From NCBI GenBank assembly GCA_025455775.1, contig JALOLT010000053.1:1-38175 (forward strand): DNA of 38,175 bases, in the 5' to 3' direction. Under the pieces are notes generated by a model. The model had not been told where the DNA came from. It worked only from the letters and a program-made list of their open reading frames with translations, and searched no databases. This document shows positions 35,143 to 37,858 of this stretch, piece by piece. Position numbers and translations under genes: made by a program. The DNA is from Fimbriimonadaceae bacterium (lineage in GTDB: Bacteria; Armatimonadota; Fimbriimonadia; Fimbriimonadales; Fimbriimonadaceae). Position 1 is the first letter of the stretch. Each line of letters starts with the position of its first letter.

Positions 35143-35767
35143 ATGAGGCAAAGTCTCTCGAAAACCAGCCTAAGCATGGTGGTTGTGGCACTCTGTGCCA
35201 TGGCCCTCGCCCCCCCCCCGCGCGATTCAAGTAAACGGTGATACGTGGTTGCCTCCCGATATCCAGGCCTGGGCAACGAATGGATCCCGCCCACTTAACT
35301 CCCATGAACGTCAGATTGTTCTGGACACAATCGCTCAGTTGCGCGCTTCAGGGCGCAACGAGGAGGCGGATCAGCTTCAGGCGATGTTGGATGCCGGAAA
35401 CATCAGGTTCACTCCGAACGACCAGTTCCCGGCAGTGACCGTGGTTGACAATGTGAACGGCGTGCCGACGGTGAGGATCTACCTCTCACCTCTCTTCTTT
35501 AGGGCACGAACCTACAACGGGCCATGGGCCAAAAAGATGTGGCGAGCGCTCGTGCTTTTCCACGAACTGGGTCATGTCCAGCAACTGATCGGCGCCAGTC
35601 CGATGCCACCCAACATGAAGCAACGTGAACTTGCCGTGCTTTAAAGACAAATTGCGTTGCTGAATATCTTGCTCAGCCAGACAGCTGACCCCGTGTTTCG
35701 CGGGATTCTCAACGACCTCATTGATGAAACCCAGGGACTCATCAACCACTGGAACAGCCAACCATGA
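35143..35767 (+). pseudogene. Broken or switched-off exported HELGH metallopeptidase
   Basis: The start is ATG 35143, with TATACT 7 nt upstream. It encodes a signal peptide (MRQSLSKTSLSMVVVALCAMALA), then a run of ten C (35210-35219). As written the frame stops at 35240-35242. With one C fewer it continues into IQVNGDTWLPPDIQ and a zincin-like domain with LFHELGHVQQLIG (HExxH zinc motif). A second lesion, TAA at 35642-35644, interrupts RELAVL*RQIALLN, where GAA (Glu) would make a natural AVLERQIALL. Downstream the frame stays open to TGA 35765-35767, which overlaps the next ATG as ATGA. This overlap supports the longer ancestral gene. Two lesions argue for a pseudogene; the C tract alone could be phase variation or read error. 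Confidence 0.7.
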
Positions 35768-36231
35768 AAAAAGAACTCAAACTCGCCTTAGCCTTCTCGA
35801 CCATCGCCCTTGCCGGAGTCCTGATTCTGGCTACCCGGAAGGGTGTCACGCAGACGCCGCCTCAAACAGATCCCTACTTCGGGGTTGGCTATCCCAATGA
35901 CCGACCTGCTGCGGGTGAGTATGGTGCCCTCCTTGAGGAGGCCTCCCGACGTCAAGGCTCGGTGGTGGCCCTCGGTTCCAAGTCGCCAATTTTGGCATTC
36001 GAAACGGCTCTGGGCCGCCCGCTGGATAACTTCGAGCGCGGCATTTTATCCTGGCATCAGCGTCAGTCCTACCGCTACGAAGTCGTGCCCTCGATGATTG
36101 GCATGCCGGTAGCGAATCTCACTGGCGAAATGAAGCTCGCCCGGGCAGTCGGTCTCCCACCGGTTCCCTTCTATGTTTCAGGCACTTTCGAAGTGTGGGT
36201 GGACAAGGATCCCTTGCCAGTCCAGCCTTGA
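35764..36231 (+). CDS. Hypothetical membrane-anchored or exported protein
   Basis: A 155-residue protein. Basic start MKKELK followed by a hydrophobic helix (LALAFSTIALAGVLILA) with no clear cleavage site, so it is probably anchored. The soluble part has SPILAFETALGRPLDNFERGILSWHQRQ and VANLTGEMKLARAVGLPPVPFYVSGTFEVWVD in order; I recognise no family. Its ATG overlaps the stop of the broken metallopeptidase gene by 4 nt, so the two were translationally coupled and may act together (for example as enzyme and partner or inhibitor), which is a guess. Confidence 0.6.
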   Translation: MKKELKLALAFSTIALAGVLILATRKGVTQTPPQTDPYFGVGYPNDRPAAGEYGALLEEASRRQGSVVALGSKSPILAFETALGRPLDNFERGILSWHQRQSYRYEVVPSMIGMPVANLTGEMKLARAVGLPPVPFYVSGTFEVWVDKDPLPVQP

Positions 36232-36433: not shown

Positions 36434-36441
36434 TATATAAT
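36434..36441 (+). promoter_or_regulatory. -10 promoter box before the repeat-containing gene
   Basis: TATATAAT (36434-36441) contains an exact TATAAT at 36436-36441 and has TG one base before TATATA, an extended -10 form. A start of transcription near 36448 would leave a leader with AGAGGAAAA before ATG 36467. No clear -35 is seen. The preceding 36232-36433 holds no credible gene, only a 6-bp hairpin (TCCGAC/GTCGGA, 36361-36381). Confidence 0.5.
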
Positions 36442-36466: not shown

Positions 36467-37274
36467 ATGCTTTTAGCCGTACTCCTCACTCAACTCAACT
36501 CAACTCAACTCAACTCAACTGAACTCAACTGATTGGTGGCGAACGCATCTCGAGTTCGAACCTCCTTCGGCTCCACCTGTTGGGGATGATCCCACTCCAG
36601 TCTTCGAGGAGGTATACGTGTTCCCTGCCTGGCGGTACCAGATAACGATGTCGATCACTCTCGTCCGCTTAGTGGAACTGGAGGCACCTGACACAGCATA
36701 TGGAAACGCAAGGAGTGAGGGGCGCGAAGGACGGCTAGTCCTTTACGCTGGGCCAAGGGACTCAGGCAATGTATCTGCTCCTCCCACCGCCTGGATCAGG
36801 GTGGAGAAGCACTGGGCTCATGGAGTGTTTGGTGGAGCTGCACCGGGAGAGCCTTCCTTTATGAATCCCGGGCCGCCTCCGGTTTTTTTCTTGGATACTA
36901 GGGGAGCTTCAGCCGACGCAGCATCCAATCTTTCTGGTGCGCCACGGTCGATCTTGTATAGGGGTGGCTATCCCCGCGTGTTACCTGACTTCGCCTCTGT
37001 CGGTCTCCCCCTGCAAGTCACAACGGAGCCTAGTCAGGTGATTCAGCTTCCTCTTGTGCCGCTCGAGTCGGAGATCGCAGGTAAGGAGTGGGCGACCCAC
37101 AAGGCGGAGTGGGTTCCACCATTCACGGCCACTTGTTCGGTGGAAGCCAAGTGGCTGTCGCCACCCTCGGGAACTTACAACTGTACAGCCAGAGCCGAGT
37201 CCGATGAAGCGTGGAGAATACTAGGATATGGCGCTGAGTCGACTGTTCAACCCCCTCCTCGGAGAAAATCATGA
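36467..37274 (+). CDS. Hypothetical exported protein with pentanucleotide repeat in its leader (frame OFF as written)
   Basis: ATG 36467 starts a hydrophobic leader, MLLAVLLT, followed by QLNST repeats coded by (CAACT)n. An in-frame ATG at 36440 could add MNERGKCQN. As written this frame stops at TGA 36530-36532. The body lies in another frame, open from 36477 to 37274. It reads TDWWRTHLEFEPPSAPPVG after the repeats and then about 220 residues, with GTG 36618 as the only start-like codon near its beginning. One extra CAACT, or two fewer, joins leader and body. The body is Pro/Gly-rich, with FPAWRYQITMSITLVRLVEL and a possible disulfide pair (TCSVEAK, YNCTARA). The family is unknown. Its stop overlaps the next ATG by 4 nt. 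Confidence 0.6.
36491..36530 (+). repeat. Pentanucleotide simple-sequence repeat (CAACT)n
   Basis: Six perfect tandem CAACT units (36491-36520), then GAACT and one more CAACT. A 5-nt unit changes the reading frame with each gain or loss. All three frames of the repeat encode cyclic forms of the same pentapeptide QLNST, without stops, so it can sit harmlessly in a coding sequence in any frame. Confidence 0.95.
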
Positions 37275-37858
37275 TCACAACCCTTATCACTATCGCTGCT
37301 TTGCACGGTCAGCAACCTCGCAATGGAGACGTGCGCCCTGGTCCAATACGCTACCCGAGCTACGAGATGCCAGAAGTGCCTCGATTCAGTGGCTTTTCCC
37401 TCGATCGGCTTGGCGATGGTTACTTGGGCTGGTCCCGTGATCTGACTTGGCCGAAGTGGGTTCCACTTGAAGAGGGCCAGAAGGACATAGACTGGCGAGA
37501 GCTTCGCATTCGGCCTGAGCCCTCTACCCTCGTTTGGGATTCAGACATCCGCTTCGGGATCGGAGTTGCCAAGGTGCCTGCAAGCTCACTTGGAAAGAAG
37601 CTTCGCATCGGCATGAGAGTGCAGGCGCGAGCGACTGGCCGTCTTGAGCCAGCCCTTATAGGGCCTAGGGGAAAGGCGAAGTCAATTTCGTTGACCAGCG
37701 AGTGGCAAGACGTTCCGGCTATGGATCTCATTGTTGAGGTCAAAAAGCATGTGGAGCCAGGCAAGCTTCTCGGTGGACGCGTCTATTATCGTGTGCAATA
37801 CCAGGGAAATGGCGAACTTTTCCTGAGGTTCAAACCCACCTGGGAGATCGTTAACTGA
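37271..37858 (+). CDS. Hypothetical exported protein
   Basis: A 195-residue protein. A very short signal-like start (MITTLITIAALHGQQ) resembles that of the 34528 gene. The mature part has a Pro-rich start, then GFSLDRLGDGYLGWSRDLTWPKWVPLEEG. A likely beta-sandwich domain follows (IRFGIGVAKVPASSLGKKLRIGMRVQARATG, VYYRVQYQGNGELFLRFKPTWEIV in order), similar in appearance to carbohydrate-binding or jelly-roll domains, though no family is recognised. It overlaps the stop of the repeat-containing gene by 4 nt (ATGA), so its expression probably depends on translation of that gene. Confidence 0.65.
   Translation: MITTLITIAALHGQQPRNGDVRPGPIRYPSYEMPEVPRFSGFSLDRLGDGYLGWSRDLTWPKWVPLEEGQKDIDWRELRIRPEPSTLVWDSDIRFGIGVAKVPASSLGKKLRIGMRVQARATGRLEPALIGPRGKAKSISLTSEWQDVPAMDLIVEVKKHVEPGKLLGGRVYYRVQYQGNGELFLRFKPTWEIVN

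Follow-up and report, generated by a model that had tools for sequence, protein, structure and literature searches.

A tract of CAACT repeats in the genome of a Fimbriimonadaceae bacterium (Armatimonadota) lies between the code for a short hydrophobic leader and a long open frame, and we tentatively regard it, with slightly less than an even chance of being right, as an opa-like translational phase-variation locus of an exported-protein operon. The division of leader and body by a repeat is an arrangement familiar chiefly in pathogens. The window analyzed is the whole of one contig (C96; 38,175 nucleotides) from a 2.99-Mb MAG of 170 contigs and 98% completeness, and the features of the locus and its surroundings are given in Table 1. 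Among named relatives, those closest to a QueA protein encoded in the window come from Fimbriimonadaceae/Armatimonadetes MAGs.

Table 1. Positions of the features at and around the CAACT tract (window coordinates)
Feature	Position	Strand	Description
Upstream neighbor	35143..35768	+	Leader MRQSLSKTSLSMVVVALCAMALAPPP; body with HELGH motif in another frame; ATGA overlap with 35764
C10 tract	35210..35219	+	Within the signal-peptide code of the neighbor, at the frame break; out of frame
Candidate -10 box	36436..36441	+	Exact TATAAT; sole exact copy in the window on either strand
Leader code	36467..36493	+	MLLAVLLTQ; fits the short leader type of the genome
Pentanucleotide tract	36491..36530	+	CAACT x6 (36491-36520), GAACT, CAACT
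Body frame (ORFan)	36525..37274	+	249 codons counted from the tract end; terminates in ATGA
Rival translation start	36607..36620	+	AGGAGG, then GTG 36618; perfect Shine-Dalgarno, 5-nt spacing
Partner gene	37271..37858	+	Leader MITTLITIAALHGQQ; product of 195 aa, with a beta-sandwich predicted for its C-terminal part

The perfect period-5 run extends over 33 bp (36488-36520), and TRF describes the tract as period 5 with 8.6 copies. The frame opened by ATG 36467 encodes MLLAVLLTQLNSTQLNSTELN and terminates at TGA 36530, and the body is read in another frame, which is free of stops for 265 codons (36477-37271) and overlaps ATG 37271 in an ATGA. Adding one unit or removing two brings the body into the frame of ATG 36467. 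The sequence-only reading had anticipated this joining, and it had also correctly described the TATAAT box, the start codon, the leader and its stop, the body of about 265 codons and the overlap with the next gene. Its count of six CAACT units was right, but of the two further units that it took as near copies, one is imperfect (GAACT) and the other exact. The repeat had also been described as stop-free in all frames, and this needs correction: TGA 36520 and TGA 36530, formed from the near unit GAACT and the tract end, close both of the nonbody frames, so that the exit from the tract is open in the body frame alone. Two more start codons lie upstream. ATG 36440 shares the frame of the leader but coincides in part with the TATAAT box, and ATG 36457 opens the third frame, ends at TGA 36520 and joins the body at -1 or +2 units. 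As a start at ATG 36457 gives no hydrophobic leader, the tract might produce three states, with the protein exported, not exported, or off.

To judge the rarity of the tract, repeat tracts were surveyed over 1.89 Mb (63% of the genome) and compared with ten order-3 Markov simulations, each 1.89 Mb long. The longest perfect period-5 run was 33 bp in the observed sequence and 15 to 18 bp in the simulations, and no other pentanucleotide array in the surveyed sequence reached four units. Across the whole genome, four consecutive CAACT units occur at this locus only, and the corresponding 20-mer is present in 1 of 84 other genomes of the family, belonging to a different genus (G027; CAACT x5, contig C5:1560-1584). 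A tract far beyond chance expectation, built of units whose length is no multiple of three and placed exactly at the leader/body junction, argues for phase variation, and so does a body frame that stays open from the tract to the ATGA overlap.

The region upstream points in the same direction, the leader resembling those of 35 other ORFs and the TATAAT box standing directly before it. The box ends 25 nt before ATG 36467. The motif is scarce in the genome (86 sites on both strands of the 1.89 Mb) and enriched upstream of ORFs, being found at most 70 nt from the first ATG in 12 of 1116 cases, compared with 2 for random positions. Unusually short leaders, built as M-hydrophobic(8-12)-Q, are frequent, a simple rule identifying them in 35 of 1473 ORFs, including MLSALLLLTQVSPPP, MMTSLAILLLVQTP and the leader of the partner gene. 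In the MLLAVLLTQ leader, the hydrophobic stretch has just 8 residues.

In the opa genes of Neisseria, CTCTT repeats lie in the code for the leader peptide, an out-of-frame copy meets an early stop, and a change in the number of units restores the exported protein (PMC3960869). The CAACT locus is similar in having a pentanucleotide tract at the leader code and an early stop that depends on the frame. It differs in phylum and in the repeat, which is CAACT and not the CTCTT of the Opa family; its body is not recognizably an outer-membrane barrel, and the units of its tract number 6 to 8, one of them imperfect. More generally, SSR contingency loci are found in Haemophilus, Campylobacter, Helicobacter and Neisseria, and the deciding criterion for calling a locus phase-variable is reversible, high-rate switching in the absence of selection (PMC11868660). 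The CAACT locus shares with them a tract exceeding chance, a unit that is not a multiple of three and a putatively exported product, whereas the low number of tracts in the genome, the nonpathogen lineage and a body gene lacking homologues set it apart.

If the locus functions like opa, transcription would begin from the TATAAT box and translation from ATG 36467 with the short export leader. Slipped-strand mispairing within the tract would alter the number of units, by 5 bases per step. In one phase of three (+1 or -2 units in comparison with the assembly), leader and body would be fused and the protein exported; in the remaining phases, translation would run into an early TGA, turning the gene OFF and lessening the coupling to the gene at 37271. 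The assembled copy would then represent the OFF state. Slippage in vivo, export, an ON/OFF phenotype and an effect on the 37271 gene by ATGA coupling are what we infer for such a locus.

What supports the body as a gene is the length of its open frame, together with the ATGA overlap and a position within a row of similar ORFan operons. Its codon score is low, at 0.026 bits per codon, where ORFs of similar size have a median of 0.206 (2nd to 5th percentile), and is not above that of an antisense frame. We found no convincing homologues in 61 relatives, viral contigs, plasmids and phages, and none in 84,980 species genomes searched with back-translated patterns; 291 genomes of the phylum gave chance-level partial matches at most, and neither Pfam nor NCBIfam gave a match. 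The anatomy expected of an opa-like switch is present, and the proposal gains from the short-leader style of the genome and from two further leader tracts, but homologues of the body with the leader in frame, sought as a check on it, were found in none of the searched sets. The structure predicted for the body from the single sequence (pLDDT 32.5) is too poor for judging the fold or a beta-barrel. The missing homologues, the poor codon score and the 8-residue hydrophobic stretch weaken the case for phase variation. For the partner gene, a fold search with the predicted model gave no better than mid-scoring matches to beta-sandwiches (highest Z 7.3), and we therefore name no family.

Two sister tracts in leaders, C10 and (CT)11, favor opa-like phase variation over coincidence. 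The (CT)11 tract (contig C90:4232-4253) is located in the signal-peptide code MGRKLALSLSLSLLASLARAQ of a 245-aa putatively exported ORFan (L124:4216-4953) and is in frame. It is the longest dinucleotide tract in the surveyed genome, 22 bp in comparison with a simulated maximum of 16 bp. The gene is followed by a leader-bearing ORFan of about 200 aa, an order resembling the CAACT locus; paralogy of this follower with the partner gene seemed apparent by eye but was unsupported by BLASTP (E 0.9). The C10 tract belongs to the upstream neighbor, an exported ORFan and candidate for a second switch or a pseudogene. As for the body, searches gave no convincing homologues for the HELGH gene, the (CT)11 gene or the partner gene. 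Homopolymers of at least 10 nt numbered 8 to 13 in the simulations, so C10 by itself is within chance, and the other C9-C11 tracts of the surveyed genome are mostly intergenic or outside leader code, so poly-C on its own is not evidence. By the simple rule, leader code makes up about 2.1% of the sequence and contains 3 of about 11 long tracts, giving a binomial P value of about 0.0014 that is rough and post hoc, as leader code has low complexity and the tracts to be counted were picked after viewing. A leucine-rich leader code is moreover inherently inclined to CT-rich repeats, which weakens the argument from the tracts, as does the chance-level frequency of C10.

The same neighbor makes gene decay a serious rival, although we consider it unlikely. 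A chance slippage would have shifted the frame and left a young pseudogene, with any switching back unselected. The HELGH body frame of the neighbor contains, in addition to the C10 frame break, one in-frame TAA near 35642, behind which the coding signal persists; the neighbor may thus be a pseudogene, and its TAA weighs against phase variation. The weak codon signal of the body and the fact that the local genes are ORFans also fit decay. On the other hand, the body is stop-free over 265 codons and retains its ATGA overlap, the tract is much longer than a chance frameshift needs, and the gene with (CT)11 in its leader is in frame.

Somewhat less probable still is that the body begins at GTG 36618, giving a nonexported protein of 218 aa, with the ORF across the repeat being an upstream ORF or noise. 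An AGGAGG stands 5 nt ahead of this GTG, and five-base Shine-Dalgarno cores do precede first ATGs in this genome (84 of 1116, compared with 30 random sites). However, the motif covers the in-frame codons GAG GAG and may stem from coding, and the body frame remains open back to the tract. Leaders on the partner gene and on the neighbors, and a genome-style leader with the only TATAAT of the window just upstream, also speak against this start. An assembly or base error, with the real number of units different and the frame permanently intact, is improbable: the MAG is in 170 contigs, only 1.6 kb separate the tract from a contig end and the in-frame TAA of the neighbor might be an error too, but the long ORFs of the window with Pfam matches that were checked are intact, and at 43 bp the tract fits within a usual short read, so the number of units should be right.

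Beyond the single phase-variation locus, it is conceivable, if doubtful, that CAACT, C10, (CT)11 and perhaps a G11 tract form a small phasome switching exported ORFans and surface sugars via slipped-strand mispairing. G11 is the longest homopolymer seen (contig C13, L047:4365-4375) and lies in the gap between divergent genes for a GT2 glycosyltransferase and a hexapeptide transferase. Such a phasome, if true, would mean slipped-strand switching outside pathogens and commensals, and a contingency tract in a leader, accompanied by sister tracts, would provide a direct test case in a little-studied phylum. In agreement with the sequence-only reading, no paper in the literature searched links Armatimonadota or Fimbriimonas with phase variation; the mechanism is already known, and as far as searched, the host lineage and the genes are new. 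Separately, an ORF whose start resembles a leader has the octamer GCCTTAAA five times at its stop codon (L109:19400-19440).
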